Assembly (NCBI GenBank): GCA_039028635.1
Contig: JBCCHV010000059.1
Location: 1-42,290, forward strand
DNA from: Acidobacteriota bacterium
GTDB lineage: Bacteria; Acidobacteriota; Thermoanaerobaculia; Multivoradales; JBCCEF01
Reading direction: 5' to 3'
Length of the DNA stretch: 42,290 nt
The notes beneath the pieces are model-generated. The model worked only from the letters and a program-made list of their open reading frames with translations. It was not told where the DNA came from and made no database searches. Shown here one piece after another: positions 12,042 through 36,048 of this stretch. The position numbers and the translations under genes were made by a program. Position 1 is the stretch's first letter, and the number at the start of each line of letters is the position of its first letter.

Positions 12042-12829
12042 GCGAGCCCCGCGATCATCCCCACTCGGACGTCGCCCTCGAGGTCCACGACCTCACCGTC
12101 GCCTATCGCTCCCAGCCGGTGCTCTGGGACATCGACCTCGAGCTGCCGGCCGGTCAGCTGATCGCCATCGTCGGCCCCAACGGCGCCGGCAAGTCGACCC
12201 TGCTGAAGGCCGTTCTGGGGCTGGTACGGCCGATCACCGGCTGGGTTCAGGTCTTCCAGGCACCGTACCGCCAGCGGCGCTCCTGGGTGGGCTATGTGCC
12301 GCAGCGCGAGAGCGTCGACTGGGACTTTCCCACCAGCGCCCTCGACGTCGTCACGATGGGCCTCTACGGCGAGCTCGGTTGGTTCCGCCGGCCCGGCCGC
12401 GCGCAGCGCAAGAAGGCCCTCGAGTGCCTCGCCATGGTCGGCATGGAGGAGTACGCCGACCGCCAGATCAGCCAGCTCTCGGGGGGCCAGCAGCAGCGCG
12501 TCTTCCTGGCCCGGGCACTGGCCCAGGACGCCCGCCTCTACCTGATGGACGAGCCCTTCGCCGGCGTCGACGCCACCACCGAGAAGGCCATCCTCGAGAT
12601 GCTCAAGGAGCTGCGCGATCGCGGCCGCACGGTGGTGGCGGTGCACCACGACCTGCAGACCGTGGCGGAGTACTTCGACCATGTCGTGCTGCTCAACATG
12701 CGCCTGGTGGCCGCCGGGCCGGTGTCCTCGACCTTCACCCAAGAGAACCTGCAGCGCACCTACGGCGGCAAGCTGACAGTGTTGACCCAGGCCGCCGAAG
12801 CCCTCCTCGGCCAGCGCAACGCCCCATGA
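12038..12829 (+). CDS. Metal ABC transporter ATP-binding protein
   Basis: 263 aa cytoplasmic ATPase of the manganese/zinc (MntB/ZnuC) class. Walker A is GPNGAGKST (46-54), followed by a Q-loop ([13 protein letters not shown]), the signature LSGGQQQR (147-154), Walker B LYLMDEP (167-173) and the H-loop in VAVHHDL. The [12 protein letters not shown] stretch after the Q-loop is characteristic of the manganese-type subfamily. The GTG start overlaps the lipoprotein stop (GTGA), and its own stop overlaps the next start (ATGA). This indicates translational coupling with the lipoprotein and permeases. Confidence 0.95.
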
Positions 12830-14127
12830 GCTTCGAGCTCACCTTCGCGGCCCGCAACGTGCTCCTCGGGGCAGGCCTGCTGGGAGCCCTCGGCGGCACC
12901 CTCGGCAGCTTCGCCTTCCTGCGGCGCCAGAGCCTCCTCGGCGACGCCCTCGCCCACGCCGCCCTCCCCGGGGTCTGTCTCGGCTTCCTGATCTCCGGCG
13001 TCAAGGCACCGCTGCCGCTGTTTCTCGGCGCCCTCGTCGCCGGCCTGCTGGGAGCGCTCTTCATCCTCGCCACCATCCGCCTCACCCGGATCAAGGAGGA
13101 CACCGCCATCGGCATCGTGCTGTCGGTGTTCTTCGGTGCCGGCATCGTGCTCCTGACCCACATTCAGAAGCTGCCGACGGGCAACCAGAGCGGCCTCGAT
13201 CGGTTTCTGTTCGGGCAAGCGGCCACCCTGCTGCCGGAAGACGTCGCCCGCATGAGCTGGCTCGGCGCGGCGGTGCTGGTCACCGTCCTGCTGTTCTACA
13301 AAGAGCTCAAGCTGATGTCCTTCGACGCCGACTTCGGGGCCAGCCTGGGCTTCCCGGTGCGCCGCCTCGAAGTCCTGCTGACGCTGCTCCTGGTGGTGGT
13401 CGTAGTGGTCGGTCTGCAGACCGTCGGCGTGGTGCTGATCGTCGCCACCTTGATCACCCCCGCCGCCGCCGCCCGCCAGTGGACCGAGCGTCTCGGCCGC
13501 ATGATCGGGCTTTCCGCCGCCATCGGCGCCGGCGCCGGTCTGGTCGGCGCCTATGCCAGCGCCACTATTCCGAAGCTGCCGACGGGACCGGCGATCGTGC
13601 TGATCTCGAGCTCGGTGCTGGTGGCATCGCTGCTCTTCGCCCCCAATCGCGGCATCCTGTGGGCGATGCTGCGGGAGCGGCGCCTGACCCGGCGCATTCG
13701 ACGCGAAAACCTGCTCAAAGATCTCTACCGCCTGTGCGAGGACCGCGACGACTGGAACCTGTTGCTGCCGGCGGTGCTACTGATGGGCGTGCGCGGCCAA
13801 TCGGCGCCGCAGCTCGCCCGCAGCGCCCGACCGCTGATCGCCGGCGGTGAGCTCGAGGAGCGCGACGGAGCCTGGCGGCTGACCCCGCGCGGCAAAGCCG
13901 AGGCCGCCCGGGTGGTGCGCAAGCACCGCCTCTGGGAGCTCTACTTGACCCGCAAGCTCGAGCTCGCCAGCGACCACGTCCACCGCGACGCGGAGGCCAT
14001 GGAGCACGTTCTGACGGACCGCGCCGTGGCCGAGCTCGAAGCCCGCCTCGGCTTTCCCGAGACCGACCCCCACGGTCGCCCGATTCCGGCCGCCCCGGAC
14101 CTTGCGGCCGTCGGAGGCCGACCATGA
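12826..14127 (+). CDS. Metal ABC permease fused to a DtxR-like sensor domain
   Basis: 433 aa, starting at the ATG that overlaps the ATPase stop. Residues 1 to about 285 form an ABC-3 family permease with about eight membrane segments ([19 protein letters not shown], the family signature, near 30-50). The remaining ~145 residues are cytoplasmic: a basic linker ([14 protein letters not shown]), a winged helix ([23 protein letters not shown]...[12 protein letters not shown]), then a DtxR-type dimer/metal domain ([40 protein letters not shown]). The sensor motif keeps His and the terminal Glu-His with Asp in place of the usual Glu. I infer metal feedback on transport. Whether the domain still binds DNA is unknown. 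The next permease starts in an ATGA overlap. Confidence 0.92.
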
Positions 14128-15239
14128 GCCCGACCCTGGTGATTCTGCTGGTGGGCAGCTGCGTCGCGGCGAGCTGCGCCCTCGTCGGCAGCTTTCTGGT
14201 GCTGCGCAAGATGGCCCTGATGGGCGACGCCATCAGCCACGCCGTCCTGCCCGGCATCGCCATCGCCTTCCTGCTCACCGGCGACCGCTCGCCGCTGCCG
14301 ATGATCATCGGAGCCGGCGCCCTCGGCGTGCTCACCGTCTTCCTGGTCGAGCTCTTCCACCGCAGCGGCCGACTCCAGGAAGACGCCTCCATCGGGGTCG
14401 TCTTTCCAGCGCTGTTCTCGATCGGGGTGATCGTGATCAGCCGATACGCCGCGCAGGTCGATCTCGACCTCGACTGCGTCCTCTACGGCGAGATCGCCTA
14501 CACCCCTTGGGACACCCTCTCTTGGGGTGACCACAATCTCGGACCCAAGGCCCTGTGGGTGAGCGGCGGCACCCTGCTGCTCAACCTCGCGCTGGTCTTC
14601 GGACTCTTCAAGGAGCTCAAGGTCTCGACCTTCGATCCAGAGCTCGGCGCCGCCCTCGGCTTCTCCTCGGTGGCGCTCCACTACATCTTGATGAGCGCCG
14701 TTTCGGTGACCGTGGTGGGAGCCTTCGAGTCGGTGGGAGCGATTCTGGTGGTCGCCATGCTGGTGGTGCCTCCGGCGACCGCTTACCTGCTCACCGACCG
14801 CCTGGCGACGATGATCTGGCTAGGCGCTGCCTTCGGCGTCGCCTCGGCCCTGGGCGGGTACTGGCTGGCGCGCTGGTGGGATGCCTCGATCGCCGGCGCC
14901 ATGGCGACGGTGGCCGGCGCTCTGTTCGTCGGCGCCATGGTGCTGTCGCCGCGTCACGGTCTCCTGGCCCGCGCTCTCGGACGCTGGCGCGGCGCTCGTC
15001 GCATGGATGGTCAGCTGGTGATGCTGCACCTCGAGAAGGGCCGCCATCCTCTGCCCTTGGCGACGCTGGTGCAGCGCTTCGGCTGGCGCCGGACGCGCCT
15101 CGACCGCACCCTCCGGGAGCTCGAGGCGGCGGGCTGGGTACGACGCCAGAAGGGCGGCGTCGCCCTCACCGACGAGGGGGCCGAGGCGCTCGAACGCAGC
15201 GGCCAGGATCGCCTCGCCCATCACCTCTCGCCGGCCTGA
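14124..15239 (+). CDS. Second metal ABC permease with C-terminal winged helix
   Basis: 371 aa. An ABC-3 permease with about eight membrane segments occupies 1 to about 285 (LRKMALMGDAISHAVLPG signature). A ~75-residue cytoplasmic tail follows after a basic linker (RWRGARRMDGQ) and reads as a winged helix-turn-helix (PLATLVQRFGWRRTRLDRTL, GWVRRQKGGVALTDEG). Unlike the partner permease it lacks the DtxR metal/dimer domain. It probably pairs with the first permease to form the channel, as TroC/TroD do. It is the last gene of the operon, and 93 bp separate it from the convergent infC gene. Confidence 0.92.
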   Translation: MSPTLVILLVGSCVAASCALVGSFLVLRKMALMGDAISHAVLPGIAIAFLLTGDRSPLPMIIGAGALGVLTVFLVELFHRSGRLQEDASIGVVFPALFSIGVIVISRYAAQVDLDLDCVLYGEIAYTPWDTLSWGDHNLGPKALWVSGGTLLLNLALVFGLFKELKVSTFDPELGAALGFSSVALHYILMSAVSVTVVGAFESVGAILVVAMLVVPPATAYLLTDRLATMIWLGAAFGVASALGGYWLARWWDASIAGAMATVAGALFVGAMVLSPRHGLLARALGRWRGARRMDGQLVMLHLEKGRHPLPLATLVQRFGWRRTRLDRTLRELEAAGWVRRQKGGVALTDEGAEALERSGQDRLAHHLSPA

Positions 15240-15332: not shown

Positions 15333-15863
15333 TCAGGCGGTCGGCTGCTCGATGGGGGCCAGGATCATGTTCATGGTCCGACCTTCCATACCGCGGGTGC
15401 GGAACTCCACCGTCCCGACGTCGGCGAGATCCTTGGTCACCTGATCGAGGATGTCGCGACCGAGCTCCGGGCGACGCATCTGCCGGTAGCGGAAGAACAC
15501 CGTCACCTTGACCTTGTTGCCCTTCTCGAGGAACTTGCGGGCGCGCAGGGTCTTGCGATCGCGGTCGTGAACGTCGATGGTCGGTCGGTACTTGACCTCT
15601 TTGATCTCGATGGTGTGCGTCTTGCGGCGCGCTTCACGATCTCGCTTCTGCTTCTCGTAGCGCTCCTTTCCCCAATCGAGGATACGAACGACAGGGGGAT
15701 CCGCATCGGGGCTGACCTCGACGAGATCGAGACCCTTTTCATCGGCTCGGCGGCGGGCGTCGTCGAGATCGACGATGCCGAGCTGGGAGCCATCGCTGTC
15801 GATGAGCCGGATGGGGCTCTTGCGGATCTGGTGATTGACACGGGGTCCTCTGGGCCTGGCGAT
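15333..15863 (-). CDS. infC: Translation initiation factor IF-3 with AUC start
   Basis: 176 aa. Protein order is normal: an N-domain (NHQIRKSPIRLIDSDGSQLG), a linker helix (ERYEKQKRDREARRK) and a C-domain (IEIKEVKYRPTIDVHD, KVKVTVFFRYRQM, GRTMNMILAP). IF-3 binds the 30S subunit and rejects non-AUG starts. In this frame an in-frame TGA (15867-15869) limits the N-terminus. No AUG, GUG or UUG follows before the conserved N-domain. The only fitting start is ATC at 15861-15863, with AGGAG 8 nt upstream. Rare AUU/AUC/AUA starts on infC are a known autoregulatory device. The usual neighbours rpmI and rplT do not follow; the gene stands alone here, convergent with the metal permease. Confidence 0.93.
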   Translation of the reverse strand: MARPRGPRVNHQIRKSPIRLIDSDGSQLGIVDLDDARRRADEKGLDLVEVSPDADPPVVRILDWGKERYEKQKRDREARRKTHTIEIKEVKYRPTIDVHDRDRKTLRARKFLEKGNKVKVTVFFRYRQMRRPELGRDILDQVTKDLADVGTVEFRTRGMEGRTMNMILAPIEQPTA

Positions 15864-31624: not shown

Positions 31625-32326
31625 ATGGGCCGTCGATTCAGCCTCGTTCTCACGATTTTCGCCCTTCTCTCGGTGTCCCTGTCCGCCGACGGCGGCTCGG
31701 TGAGCGGCAAGATCGTCTTCGATGACAAGATTCCCCGGCTGCGCCCACTGCGCATCGAGTCCGATCCTGCCTGCGCCGCGAAACACGACGGGCGGGTCTA
31801 TCCGGACTTCTTGATCCTGGGGGAGGACAATGCCCTCGCCAACGTCCTGATCCAGGTCCGAAATCCTCCGCCGGGCAACTACCAAGCCCCGGAAGAAGCG
31901 ATCGTCATCGATCAGGTGGGCTGCGTCTACACACCCAGGGTGGTCGCCGTGATGACCGGTCAAGAGCTCCTCTTCCGCAACTCCGACGGCATTCTCCACA
32001 ACGTCCACGGGCTTCCCAAGGCGAACCGCGAGTTCAACATCGGCATGCCGCCCACGGTGGCCGAGTCCTCCCAGAGGCTGGTCGAGCCGGAGCCGGCCTT
32101 CCCGGTGCGCTGCGACGTTCATCCCTGGATGGAGGCCTACGTCGCCGTGCTCAGCCACCCCTTCTTCTCGATCTCCGGAGAAGACGGACGTTACGAGATC
32201 GATGATCTGCCACCCGGCACCTACGAGCTCGCCGCCTGGCACGAGAAGCTCGGCATCCACACCACCACGGTGACCGTCGAGGAAGGCGAAGCGACCGCGG
32301 ACTTCACTTTGCGCGTGCCGAAATAG
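31625..32326 (+). CDS. Cupredoxin-like secreted copper protein heading the oxidase operon
   Basis: 233 aa, ATG at 31625 with AAGGAG 5 nt upstream. A signal peptide (cleavage near residue 20) is followed by a plastocyanin-like fold with type-1 copper ligands His125 (HNVHG), Cys163, His166 and Met169 (CDVHPWM). A short carboxypeptidase-regulatory-like sandwich follows from about 183 (SISGEDGRYEIDDLPPGTYELAAWHEK). It lies 59 bp upstream of the proposed coxA start. I infer a periplasmic electron carrier or copper donor for the oxidase. A TATACT at 31507-31512 may be the -10 of its promoter, with no good -35. Confidence 0.88.
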   Translation: MGRRFSLVLTIFALLSVSLSADGGSVSGKIVFDDKIPRLRPLRIESDPACAAKHDGRVYPDFLILGEDNALANVLIQVRNPPPGNYQAPEEAIVIDQVGCVYTPRVVAVMTGQELLFRNSDGILHNVHGLPKANREFNIGMPPTVAESSQRLVEPEPAFPVRCDVHPWMEAYVAVLSHPFFSISGEDGRYEIDDLPPGTYELAAWHEKLGIHTTTVTVEEGEATADFTLRVPK

Positions 32327-32385
32327 GCCATCCCTGCGACGATCCGGGCCGCTCGCAGAGAGACGCGTCGGCCTCTGGAGAAAGG

Positions 32386-34137
32386 CTGATCATCGACACT
32401 CCATCCGGGACCTGGCGGCGAGCCCTCTTCTCCATCGACCACAAGATGGTCGCCATCCGCTACGTCCTGGCGGCCTCGGCTTTCCTGCTGCTGGGCTTCG
32501 GCCTGATGCTGATCATGCGCTGGCAGCTCGCCAATCCCGGCGCACCGCTGCCCTGGCTCGCTGCCCTGTTCGGCGAATCCAAGATGCCCGGCGGCATCGT
32601 GCTGCCCGAGTTCTACAACCAGCTCGGGGCCATGCACGGCACCATCATGGTTTTCCTCGGCGTCGTGCCGCTGGCCGTCGGCGGCTTCGGCAACTACCTG
32701 GTTCCGCTCCAGATCGGCGCTCCAAACGTCGCCTTTCCGCGCCTCAACGGCGTCGCCTTCTACCTCTATCTGCTCGCCGGCTCGGTGATGGTGGGCTCCT
32801 TCTTCCTGCCTGGCGGAGCCCCCCAATCGGGCTGGACCTCCTACCCGCCCCTCGCCAACATCGCCCCCCTCGGCCAGACCTTCTGGCTCGTCGGCATCGT
32901 GCTCCTCGCCGTCTCCTCGCTGCTCGGCGCCATCAACCTGATCACCACCGTGGTCCAGCTCCGCGCACCGGGCATGACCATGATGCGCCTGCCCTTCTTC
33001 GTCTGGGCGCAGCTGGTCACCGCCTTCCTCCTGCTGCTGGCCTTTCCCCCCCTCGAGGCGGCCGGCCTGATGCAGCTCATGGACCGGCTGGCGGACACCA
33101 GCTTCTTCATGCCCAGCGGCCTAGTGGTGAGCGGCGAAGTCCTCGACCTCAGCGGCGGCGGCAGCCCGATCCTGTGGCAGCACCTGTTCTGGTTCCTCGC
33201 CCATCCGGAGGTCTACGTCCTCATCCTGCCGGCCCTGGGAATCGTCGGCGAGATCATCGCCACCAACACGCGCCGTCCCCTGTGGGGCTACCGATCGCTG
33301 GTCTACTCGGTGATCTTCCTCGGCTTCATGTCTTTTCTGGTCTGGGCCCACCACATGTTCCTCACCGGCATGGGAACGGTCCTCAACACCTTCTTTCAAA
33401 CCACCACGATGATCATCTCGATCCCCTCCGTGATCATCCTGACGGCCCTCCTCTTTTCCCTCTGGGGCGGCTCCATCCGCTTCACCACGCCGATGCTCTT
33501 CGCCATCGCCTTCCTGCCGATGTTCGGCCTCGGCGGCCTCACCGGCCTGCCCCTCGGCCTCGCCGCCTCGAACATCCACCTGCACGACACCTACTACGTC
33601 ATTGCCCACTTCCACTACGTGGTGGCACCGGGCACTCTCTTCGCCCTCTTCGCCGGCATCTATCACTGGTACCCGAAGGTCACCGGCCGCCCGATGAGCC
33701 GGCACCTCGGCCTGATCCACTTCTGGGGCAGCCTGGTGTGCATGAACGGTGTCTTCTTGCCGATGTTCCTGCAGGGTCTGGCCGGCATGCAGCGGCGCCT
33801 CTACGACGGCGGCCAGATCTACGCCCACACCGAGAACGTCGTCGCCCTGCACGGCCTGATCGGCCTCTCGGCCGCCGGCCTCGGCCTCTTCCAGCTACCC
33901 TTCCTGATCAACCTCCTGATCAGCCTCAAGGGCCGCCCTTCGACCGCCCGCAATCCCTGGCGCGCCACCACCCTCGAATGGCAAACCGCCTCGCCCCCGC
34001 CGCCCGGCAACTTCACCGCCATTCCGCAGATCCACCGGCAGCCCTACGAGTACAGCCTGCCGGGAAGGGCCTCCGATTTCACGCCCCAATCCCAGCCGCC
34101 GGCAGCCGCCTCGCCGGGACTGGCCGACTCCCCCTGA
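32386..34137 (+). CDS. coxA: Cytochrome c oxidase subunit I, non-AUG start
   Basis: 583 aa if begun at CTG 32386 (581 or 582 from ATC 32392 or 32389). The first in-frame ATG (32446) would cut off TPSGTWRRALFSIDHK, whose LFSxDHK is conserved at the N-terminus of this subunit, and has no SD. GGAG at 32377-32380 serves the upstream codons. Ligands (numbered from the CTG): low-spin heme His84 in AMHGTIM, CuB His273 and cross-linked Tyr277 in HPEVY, CuB His322-His323 in AHHMF, heme a3/a ligands His408/His410 in IAHFHYV. The Glu of HPEVY serves the D channel. It reduces O2 to water and pumps protons in the inner membrane. Confidence 0.93.
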   Translation: MIIDTPSGTWRRALFSIDHKMVAIRYVLAASAFLLLGFGLMLIMRWQLANPGAPLPWLAALFGESKMPGGIVLPEFYNQLGAMHGTIMVFLGVVPLAVGGFGNYLVPLQIGAPNVAFPRLNGVAFYLYLLAGSVMVGSFFLPGGAPQSGWTSYPPLANIAPLGQTFWLVGIVLLAVSSLLGAINLITTVVQLRAPGMTMMRLPFFVWAQLVTAFLLLLAFPPLEAAGLMQLMDRLADTSFFMPSGLVVSGEVLDLSGGGSPILWQHLFWFLAHPEVYVLILPALGIVGEIIATNTRRPLWGYRSLVYSVIFLGFMSFLVWAHHMFLTGMGTVLNTFFQTTTMIISIPSVIILTALLFSLWGGSIRFTTPMLFAIAFLPMFGLGGLTGLPLGLAASNIHLHDTYYVIAHFHYVVAPGTLFALFAGIYHWYPKVTGRPMSRHLGLIHFWGSLVCMNGVFLPMFLQGLAGMQRRLYDGGQIYAHTENVVALHGLIGLSAAGLGLFQLPFLINLLISLKGRPSTARNPWRATTLEWQTASPPPPGNFTAIPQIHRQPYEYSLPGRASDFTPQSQPPAAASPGLADSP

Positions 34138-34149
34138 GACGCGGCCGCG

Positions 34150-34155
34150 AGGAGG
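34150..34155 (+). promoter_or_regulatory. coxC: Shine-Dalgarno in front of the AUC start of coxC
   Basis: AGGAGG at 34150-34155 ends 5 nt before ATC at 34161 (6 nt if read as AGGAG). No AUG, GUG or UUG lies within a usable distance in the subunit III frame. Confidence 0.7.
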
Positions 34156-34160
34156 CGACG

Positions 34161-34760
34161 ATCCAGCACCCCATTCCCTACACCGTCGAGATCCGTCCCG
34201 ATACCGGACTGCACAACGTCCAGCTCGGGATCTGGCTGTTCCTGGCCTCGGAGGTGATGCTCTTCGGCGCCCTCTTCGCGGCCTACCTCCTGCTGCGAGT
34301 CGGTGCCGCCGATCCCTGGCCCCCTGGGGCGACCATTCTCGACCTGCCGCTGGGTCTGCTCGCCACTTTCGTCTTGATCCTCTCGAACGTCACCATGGTC
34401 GCCGGCTGGAGCGCCCTACTGCGCCAGCGCTTGGCCCTCTACCGACCGGCCCTCGGGCTCACCGTGGCCCTCGCCGCCACCTTTCTGGCGCTCCAAGGGG
34501 CAGCCTATTCGGACGCATTCGGCCGCGGCCTCTATCCATCGACCAGCACCTTCTTCGCCCTCTACTTCACCCTCACCGGCCTCACCGCCGTCCACGTCCT
34601 GGGCGGCGCGCTGATGATTCTCTACCTCTGGGCCTCGGGCCCGGGATTCTGGAAGCGGGCGCCGCAGCAACTCCTCCATCGCGTCGAAGCCAGCGGCCTC
34701 TTCTGGCACTTCGTCGGGCTGGTCTGGATCTTCCTGTTCCCGCTCCTCTACCTCATCTAG
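34161..34760 (+). CDS. coxC: Cytochrome c oxidase subunit III, apparent AUC start
   Basis: 199 aa from ATC 34161. Five predicted membrane segments, with the family N-terminal helix LGIWLFLASEVMLFGALFAAY, the pair LSNVTMVAGWSAL, and the C-terminal GLFWHFVGLVWIFLFPLLYL. The frame is open far upstream through coxA, but upstream codons up to the coxA stop contain only CTG 34134 without SD. Downstream, the first GTG/ATG (34254/34257) falls inside the first helix. The best start is therefore ATC behind AGGAG. Subunit III stabilises the catalytic core and aids proton uptake. It begins 23 bp after the coxA stop. Confidence 0.9.
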   Translation: MQHPIPYTVEIRPDTGLHNVQLGIWLFLASEVMLFGALFAAYLLLRVGAADPWPPGATILDLPLGLLATFVLILSNVTMVAGWSALLRQRLALYRPALGLTVALAATFLALQGAAYSDAFGRGLYPSTSTFFALYFTLTGLTAVHVLGGALMILYLWASGPGFWKRAPQQLLHRVEASGLFWHFVGLVWIFLFPLLYLI

Positions 34761-34782: not shown

Positions 34783-34980
34783 ATGTCCCTCAAGGCCCTC
34801 CACGTCGTCCTGCTCTGCCTCAGCATCCTTCTCATGTTGGGGACCGGTGGTTGGCTGGTCGTGACCCGCGACGAGCCCCTCGCTCTCGCTTTCGCCGCCG
34901 CCTGCTTCGCCTTCGCCCTCGGCTTGCTGGCCTACGGTCGCTGGTTTCTAATCCGCCACCGGGAGATCAGCTACCTGTGA
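34783..34980 (+). CDS. Small two-helix membrane protein of the oxidase operon
   Basis: 65 aa with two hydrophobic helices (about 6-26 and 32-51) and a basic C-terminus RWFLIRHREISYL. It resembles the small accessory (subunit IV-like) proteins encoded in heme-copper oxidase operons, but no specific family is recognised. The SD is poor. It lies 22 bp after coxC, and its stop overlaps the next start (GTGA), so it belongs to the operon. Confidence 0.75.
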   Translation: MSLKALHVVLLCLSILLMLGTGGWLVVTRDEPLALAFAAACFAFALGLLAYGRWFLIRHREISYL

Positions 34981-35235: not shown

Positions 35236-36048
35236 ATGGGAGACCTACTCAGACTGCCGGAGGTGGCCTCGGCCCACGGCGCCGACCTCGACCGGGTGAC
35301 CTACCTGATCCACGGTCTGATGGCCCTGCTCTTCGTCGGCTGGGGCGTCTTCCTGATCTACGTGCTGGTGCGCTTCCGTAGCAGCCGGCAGCCGAAGGCC
35401 AATCCCCGGGGACTGCAGACCCGCGCCGGCTATTGGCTCGAAGGCCTCGTCGCCACCAGCGAAGCCCTGCTGCTGGTCGGCCTCGCCATTCCCCTCTGGT
35501 CGGCCCGGGTCGACGACTTTCCGCCCCTCGCCTCGGCGACCCAGGTCCGGGTCATCGCCGAGCAATTCGCCTGGAACGTTCACTACCCGGGTCCCGACGG
35601 CATTTTCGGGCGCACCGCCATCGACCTGCTCGACGCCGCCTCGAACCCGATCGGCCTCGACCCCGAGGATCCCCACGGCAAGGACGACTTCACCACCTTC
35701 AACCGCCTCTCGCTGCCCGTCGACCGGCCGGCGATCATCAGCCTGACGAGCAAGGACGTGATCCACAGCTTCATGCTCAACGAGATGCGGATCAAGCAAG
35801 ACACCATCCCCGGCATCGTCACGCCGGTTTGGTTCACCCCCACCATGACCACCGCCGAGCTCCGCGCCAAGCACGGCAGGGACGACCTCAATTTCGAGAT
35901 CGCCTGCGCTCAGCTCTGCGGCCTCGGCCACTACCGCATGCGGGGCTACCTCGACATCCTGCCGCAGGCCGAGTTCGACACCTGGATGGACGAGCAGCTC
36001 GCCCGTAAGAGAGAAGAGGAAGCGAGCGGGGATTCGTTCTGGAACTGA
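35236..36048 (+). CDS. coxB: Cytochrome c oxidase subunit II
   Basis: 270 aa. Two membrane helices (about 22-46 and 70-90) anchor a periplasmic cupredoxin domain. CuA ligands are all present: His177 (VIHSFML), Cys224 and Cys228 (CAQLC), His232 and Met235 (GHYRM). Gln226 replaces the usual Glu, which contributes only a backbone carbonyl. EQFAWNVHYPG holds the aromatic electron-entry strand. There is no fused cytochrome c domain and no obvious lipobox. It accepts electrons from a soluble carrier, possibly the copper protein at the head of the operon. The order I-III-small-small-II departs from the common II-I-III. Confidence 0.95.
   Translation: MGDLLRLPEVASAHGADLDRVTYLIHGLMALLFVGWGVFLIYVLVRFRSSRQPKANPRGLQTRAGYWLEGLVATSEALLLVGLAIPLWSARVDDFPPLASATQVRVIAEQFAWNVHYPGPDGIFGRTAIDLLDAASNPIGLDPEDPHGKDDFTTFNRLSLPVDRPAIISLTSKDVIHSFMLNEMRIKQDTIPGIVTPVWFTPTMTTAELRAKHGRDDLNFEIACAQLCGLGHYRMRGYLDILPQAEFDTWMDEQLARKREEEASGDSFWN

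Follow-up and report, generated by a model that had tools for sequence, protein, structure and literature searches.

The start codon of coxC

Which codon starts a cytochrome c oxidase subunit III gene when no usual start codon precedes its conserved N-terminus? This question is raised by coxC in the window, that is, the whole stretch of 42,290 nucleotides analysed here. Counted from an ATC at 34161-34163, the gene (34161-34760, plus strand; PF00510, E 3.1e-17) comprises 199 codons, and the preliminary description had proposed this ATC as its start codon, behind a strong Shine-Dalgarno (SD) sequence. Direct reading confirmed the elements of this proposal. An AGGAGG occupies positions 34150-34155, the ATC standing 6 nt after AGGAG and 5 nt after AGGAGG. 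As had been claimed, the frame holds no AUG, GUG or UUG between the coxA stop codon (TGA, 34135-34137, 23 nt 5' of the ATC) and residue 32. The first canonical codons are GTG 34254 and ATG 34257 (34254-34259, codons 32 and 33), both inside the conserved segment LFLASEVML. Upstream, the nearest in-frame ATG lies within coxA at 33978-33980, 61 codons before the ATC, and no ATG, GTG or TTG separates it from GTG 34254. The frame is open through this 3' part of coxA; ATG 33978, before which no SD is seen, is likely the wrong start that gene callers would choose.

The spacing of the ATC is that of ordinary starts in this organism. In its genome ATG peaks 5-11 nt past GGAG, with 25 occurrences at 157 sites at a distance of 6 nt and 2 at 154 sites at 3 nt. 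coxC therefore combines an SD at a working distance with the absence of any ATG, GTG or TTG compatible with its conserved N-terminus, as expected of a near-cognate start. Folding of the 71-nt region centred on the ATC is poorer than that of 198 of 200 shuffled sequences, and for the inner 41 nt it is poorer than in 183 of 200. A 16S gene, sought for its anti-SD, was not found in the assembly.

The same region was compared in relatives, since alignment of the 5' end of coxC had been suggested as a way to see whether the ATC is conserved behind the SD. Matches to coxC were obtained in 58 of the 59 genomes searched, own genome included. In the sister species of the same genus (G001), AGGAG-CCCACG-ATG aligns without gaps with the AGGAG-GCGACG-ATC found here, placing an ATG opposite the ATC at the same 6-nt spacing. 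All 20 relatives of the order that were picked from the best coxC matches carry a canonical codon at residues -7 to +3 relative to the ATC (18 ATG, 2 GTG). The same is true, within -8 to +3, of 25 further loci from the phylum (22 ATG, 2 GTG, 1 TTG), which were the best new ones of 61 matching genomes among 396 searched. Conservation of the ATC as a start, as would be expected of IF-3-regulated starts of the infC and sigR kind, was thus not borne out: each of the 45 homologues examined offers ATG, GTG or TTG within residues -8 to +3. The two GTG loci of the order (L055 and L056) likewise carry ATC at the aligned position, where it is an internal isoleucine codon located 5 to 8 codons downstream of a GTG that is in frame and has an AGGAG of its own. 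As sole candidate for the start of coxC, ATC is seen in this genome alone.

The codons that follow the ATC are conserved. Between the two sister species, codons 5-31 display a dN of 0.106 for a dS of 0.660, a ratio lower than that of the whole gene (dN 0.338, dS 0.871), and this segment has therefore been under selection as protein. If the loss of the ATG were recent, this conservation would predate it. Taken together, the ATG at the same spacing in the sister species, the canonical codons of the 45 homologues and the conserved codons downstream make it most likely that an ATG has given way to ATC here and that this ATC is used as a start. The proposal of an AUC start is in this respect well supported by comparative sequence evidence.

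A second gene without a canonical start

The gene immediately upstream, coxA (32389-34137, plus strand), encodes subunit I (PF00115, E 7.1e-132 on 32392-34134) and also has no canonical start. From the in-frame stop at 32203-32205 to the ATG at 32446-32448, its frame contains no ATG, GTG or TTG. This first ATG falls within the segment aligning to FSxDHKVIGIQY of the relatives and, being inside such a conserved segment, is unlikely to be the start; in 20 of 20 relatives an ATG lies upstream of the aligned segment. A GGAG at 32377-32380 precedes three candidates, CTG 32386, ATC 32389 and ATC 32392, by 5, 8 and 11 nt respectively. As for coxC, the 71-nt start region folds poorly (more poorly than 199 of 200 shuffles). 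Both reading frames are intact, with a GC3 of 0.87 for coxC and 0.92 for coxA. Most likely, coxA underwent the same kind of start loss. The suggestion that synthesis of subunit III would depend on coupling to coxA has therefore to be revised, because coxA is itself deprived of a canonical start.

Accelerated evolution of the oxidase operon

The other genes of the operon have ordinary starts on the same strand: an upstream CarboxypepD_reg-like gene (31625-32326, ATG behind AGGAG), a small gene for a 65-residue product (34783-34980, ATG) and coxB for subunit II (35236-36048, ATG; PF00116, E 1.5e-7). Sequence identity to outgroup genomes was compared between this genome and its sister species. 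Over 19 outgroup genomes, mean identity is 54.5% here and 73.3% in the sister species for coxC, and 67.7% and 76.1% for coxA. By local alignment, the corresponding values are 55.7 and 59.8 for coxB (18 genomes), 51.5 and 61.1 for the upstream gene (14 genomes), and 35.6 and 40.5 for the 65-residue product (16 genomes). The acceleration is consequently strongest in coxC and is not limited to coxA and coxC. The infC control reveals little of it (58.5 and 60.4, 28 genomes). This genome contains three COX1-family genes, in this operon and on contigs C30 and C12; the paralogous coxA on C30 is 90.0% identical to its counterpart in the sister species, and the coxA of the operon 74.2%.

The substitutions reach residues that are otherwise fixed. 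Among sites invariant in 19 relatives, 11 of 70 are changed in coxC and 25 of 275 in coxA; the sister species differs at 1 and 6 of them, and each relative, when it is itself omitted from the set, at 0-2 and 0-6. Subunit III lacks D186 of the WHFVD motif, H142 and E115, all three invariant in the 19 relatives. At sites with an 80% consensus, changes private to this genome at codon positions 1, 2 and 3 amount to 20/121, 21/142 and 13/53 in coxC (3, 0 and 4 private to the sister species) and to 36/393, 26/469 and 27/184 in coxA (10, 5 and 9).

In subunit I, the histidines of heme a/a3 and CuB and the glutamate and tyrosine of HPEVY are kept, as expected of an aa3-type oxidase. The aspartate of the PDMAFPRLN motif, which we take to correspond to D132 of Rhodobacter sphaeroides, is replaced by asparagine (Asn113 counted from 32389; 32725-32727, plus strand), and aspartate is found at this place in 20 of 20 relatives. 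In the table given in PMC6934443, D132 is the D-channel aspartate in R. sphaeroides numbering. Asn113 thus predicts a poor uptake of protons through the D-channel and the enzyme is probably altered. Because both starts, the D-channel aspartate and numerous invariant residues have been lost, we read the oxidase of this operon as demoted. Given the fast evolution of coxA and coxC, weakened selection must also be taken seriously as an alternative to regulation.

Other probable AUC starts in the same genome

A survey was conducted on 1.64 of the 6.28 Mb of the genome. Before coding frames, ATC occurs 5-10 nt after GGAG at 21 of 951 sites and at the larger distance of 13-20 nt at 42 of 1324, which gives a ratio of 0.70. 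The ratio is 10.4 for ATG, 0.75 for CTG and, on small counts, 2.09 for ATT (9/951 vs 6/1324). In the absence of enrichment behind the SD in these 1.64 Mb, AUC was rejected as a general start codon of this organism. In the same portion, 11 of 1004 predicted genes have no canonical start nearby. Five of them were judged by eye as likely real: coxC, infC, hflX, a FAD-binding protein gene on contig C10 (possibly ATT) and a gene on contig C4 (possibly CTG). The remaining six were taken as probable or possible boundary or shadow-frame artefacts; coxA escapes this particular test. In 104 reciprocal pairs with the sister species, a near canonical start is present on both sides in 78, lacking here only in 13, in the sister only in 3 and in both in 10. 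Inspected by eye, 11 of the 13 are shadow frames or misplaced boundaries, which leaves coxA and coxC.

The gene for IF-3, infC (15333-15863, minus strand; TIGR00168, E 1.7e-57), is located on the same contig as the cox operon. Its ATC start (15863-15861) follows an in-frame TGA by two codons and is kept in the sister species and in other relatives. The long form of hflX (contig C12, 72676-74334, plus strand; 12676-14334 in locus L245), which contains the GTP-bdg_N, GTP-bdg_M and MMR_HSR1 domains, appears to have another AUC start, of greater age. Its ATC is codon 2 behind GGAGG, and no ATG, GTG or TTG start is available before codon 35; the predicted product would begin with fMet-SQPVHGDLK. 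The CTG directly 5' of this ATC is absent from the other genomes compared. Among 21 genomes searched, the 5' end was compared in the 12 (this one included) having a full-length match and a locus. An ATC without any canonical codon back to the in-frame stop is found in 5 of these 12 genomes of the order, at codon 2 here and in G001 and G008, whereas G006 and G007 have it at codon 3; the hflX start can accordingly be considered older than that of coxC. In G005 the ATC is codon 1 with TTG codons nearby, and G020 has ACG at codon 2 and no canonical codon. An ATG is present at codon 3 in G004, G012 and G019, at codon 4 in G013 and at codon 5 in G016. With infC and hflX as precedents, it is credible that this organism initiates translation at AUC.

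Two further genes of the survey deserve mention. The gene following an rsmH-like one (C4, about 43004-43396, plus strand) has no near canonical start in this genome or in the sister species (C3, 62236-62625). Its candidate start is a CTG behind GGAGG and, by position, the gene is presumably ftsL-like, its neighbour being taken as rsmH-like. The FAD-binding protein gene (L230; C10, 52477-51059, minus strand) likewise lacks a near canonical start, the candidate being the ATT of ATT-ACC-GAT-TTC behind GAGG. Relatives of this protein were matched in 4 of 13 genomes, this one included; the other matches were weak and none was informative.

Alternative explanations

The accelerated evolution of coxA and coxC also fits a loss of function. 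The operon could be in early decay, the starts having been lost when the oxidase was no longer needed, with coxA and coxC hardly or not translated. Two adjacent starts are indeed lost, two further COX1-family genes reside on C30 and C12, the changes at invariant sites in both genes are far more numerous than in the sister species and include the D-channel replacement, and private changes at consensus sites far outnumber those of the sister at all codon positions. About 780 codons are nevertheless free of stops and frameshifts at a protein divergence of 26-39% from the sister species, with a pairwise dN/dS of about 0.33-0.39. The heme and CuB ligands, the HPEVY glutamate and tyrosine, the SD and the N-terminus of coxC are moreover retained. 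Early decay is for these reasons regarded as unlikely, though worth bearing in mind.

Canonical start codons could also be hidden by errors of base calling or assembly. A single substitution turns the ATC of coxC into ATG, another would give coxA a canonical start, and the genome is a 117-contig assembly of 95.11% completeness. A TAG at C1:147300 interrupts a gene labelled TPR-like by eye, whose frame seems to go on; it may be a nonsense mutation, an assembly error or the boundary of two genes. Such an explanation demands, however, two independent errors, both in the start codons of adjacent genes. In addition, the ATC codons of infC and hflX occupy the same places in the sister species, so that error does not account for the AUC starts of this lineage as a class. 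Errors at both cox starts are hence very unlikely. Still less probable is a start of coxC at another codon. ATG 33978 is in frame without an intervening stop and would add 61 residues overlapping coxA, but in 15 of 17 plus-strand relatives this stretch of 61 codons is interrupted by a stop in the same frame and, as mentioned above, no SD is seen before this ATG. ACG 34158 directly precedes the ATC but lies only 3 nt after GGAG, a distance at which this genome hardly ever has an ATG, and a start at GTG 34254 would remove the conserved first segment of the protein.

A horizontal origin of the operon, or contamination, is not favoured. After the genome itself, the best match is the sister species, in which the operon genes are in the same order, and the infC of this contig is 87.3% identical to that of the sister species.

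Proposed mechanism

The reading that we hold to be probable is that coxC is weakly translated from AUC 34161, which would have replaced the ancestral AUG of the lineage, in a demoted oxidase. The AGGAGG located 5 nt upstream would position 30S subunits at this codon, and these subunits would perhaps be fed from ribosomes finishing coxA 23 nt upstream. The ordinary initiator tRNA (anticodon CAU) would decode AUC with a third-base mismatch, yielding at a low rate a product beginning with fMet-QHPIPYTVEIR. An initiator-like tRNA with anticodon CAT (L165) is present. Of 42 tRNA matches, 30 were scanned as loci, and no unusual initiator tRNA reading AUC was seen among these. The rare and weak starts of coxA and coxC would thus probably keep protein output low. 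The oxidase of this operon, one of three COX1-family enzymes, would be a low-level enzyme under weakened, but not absent, selection.

The preliminary description had also placed the synthesis of subunit III under the influence of IF-3. In the reconstituted system of PMC10158994, IF-3 excludes weak third-base pairs, a result extended here to the AUC/CAU pair, and IF-3 represses the GTC start of Streptomyces sigR (PMC5472188). For infC fidelity alleles, increases in output of 3- to 15-fold are quoted (PMC5472188). On these grounds a sensitivity of the coxC AUC to IF-3 is expected, and control of this start by IF-3 is plausible by analogy. The infC gene itself starts with ATT in E. coli and with ATC in Streptomyces, in connection with IF-3 autoregulation (PMC5472188). 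coxC resembles these genes in having a codon against which IF-3 discriminates as a start. Unlike them, it has ATC as sole candidate in this genome only, whereas the ATC of infC is kept in the sister species and other relatives, and its product is no translation factor. The sigR gene of Streptomyces coelicolor offers a parallel for the operon, with a noncanonical start in a cotranscribed, coupled pair that lowers the output of one partner (PMC5472188). In that case the effect of IF-3 is experimental, while here it is expected by analogy, and two genes of the operon are affected.

Significance

AUC starts outside infC had been described as rare, and this stands, although that of coxC is not unique: for Listeria rnhC, an ATC start is reported that is fixed and has been confirmed by experiment (PMC13068326), and the hflX of this genome appears to have one as well. 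Like coxC, hflX has its ATC behind GGAGG and lacks a canonical alternative, none being available there until codon 35, but it differs in its wider distribution and greater age. Such starts are already known, therefore, and coxC adds another case. Listeria also provides an example of a one-base change of a start codon altering protein dose, in the ATG-to-ATA and ATG-to-ATT variants of rsbW (PMC13068326); these arose under laboratory selection, whereas the change in coxC is a difference from a sister species. The replacement of AUG by AUC appears very rare in the list of PMC5622118, where 61,358 reconstructed ancestral AUG starts comprise 363 changes to GUG, 113 to UUG, 2 to CUG, 1 to AUU and none to AUC. 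Gene callers depend on the three usual start codons (PMC5472188), so that the few other bacterial starts are easily missed. In a limited search of open papers, no report of AUC-started oxidase genes or of an AUC start of hflX was found. All 64 codons have reportedly been measured in E. coli.

HflX is a ribosome-splitting factor for which crosslinks on the 30S subunit near the IF-3 site are reported (PMC4770234). An IF-3-sensitive start of hflX would, since HflX acts on ribosomes, be meaningful. It may be speculated, although this is improbable, that the AUC-started set (infC, hflX, coxC and perhaps coxA) rises together in output when free IF-3 falls, which would link a shortage of IF-3 both to the splitting of ribosomes by HflX and to an oxidase that is slow and pumps protons poorly. 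The points most worth following are the loss of two starts within a single operon and the ATC that hflX shares with relatives. With the latter, gating of a ribosome factor by IF-3 can be put directly to the test. The adjacent start losses, together with the fast evolution of coxA and coxC, constitute a natural case in which start strength and constraint on the enzyme would be falling together.
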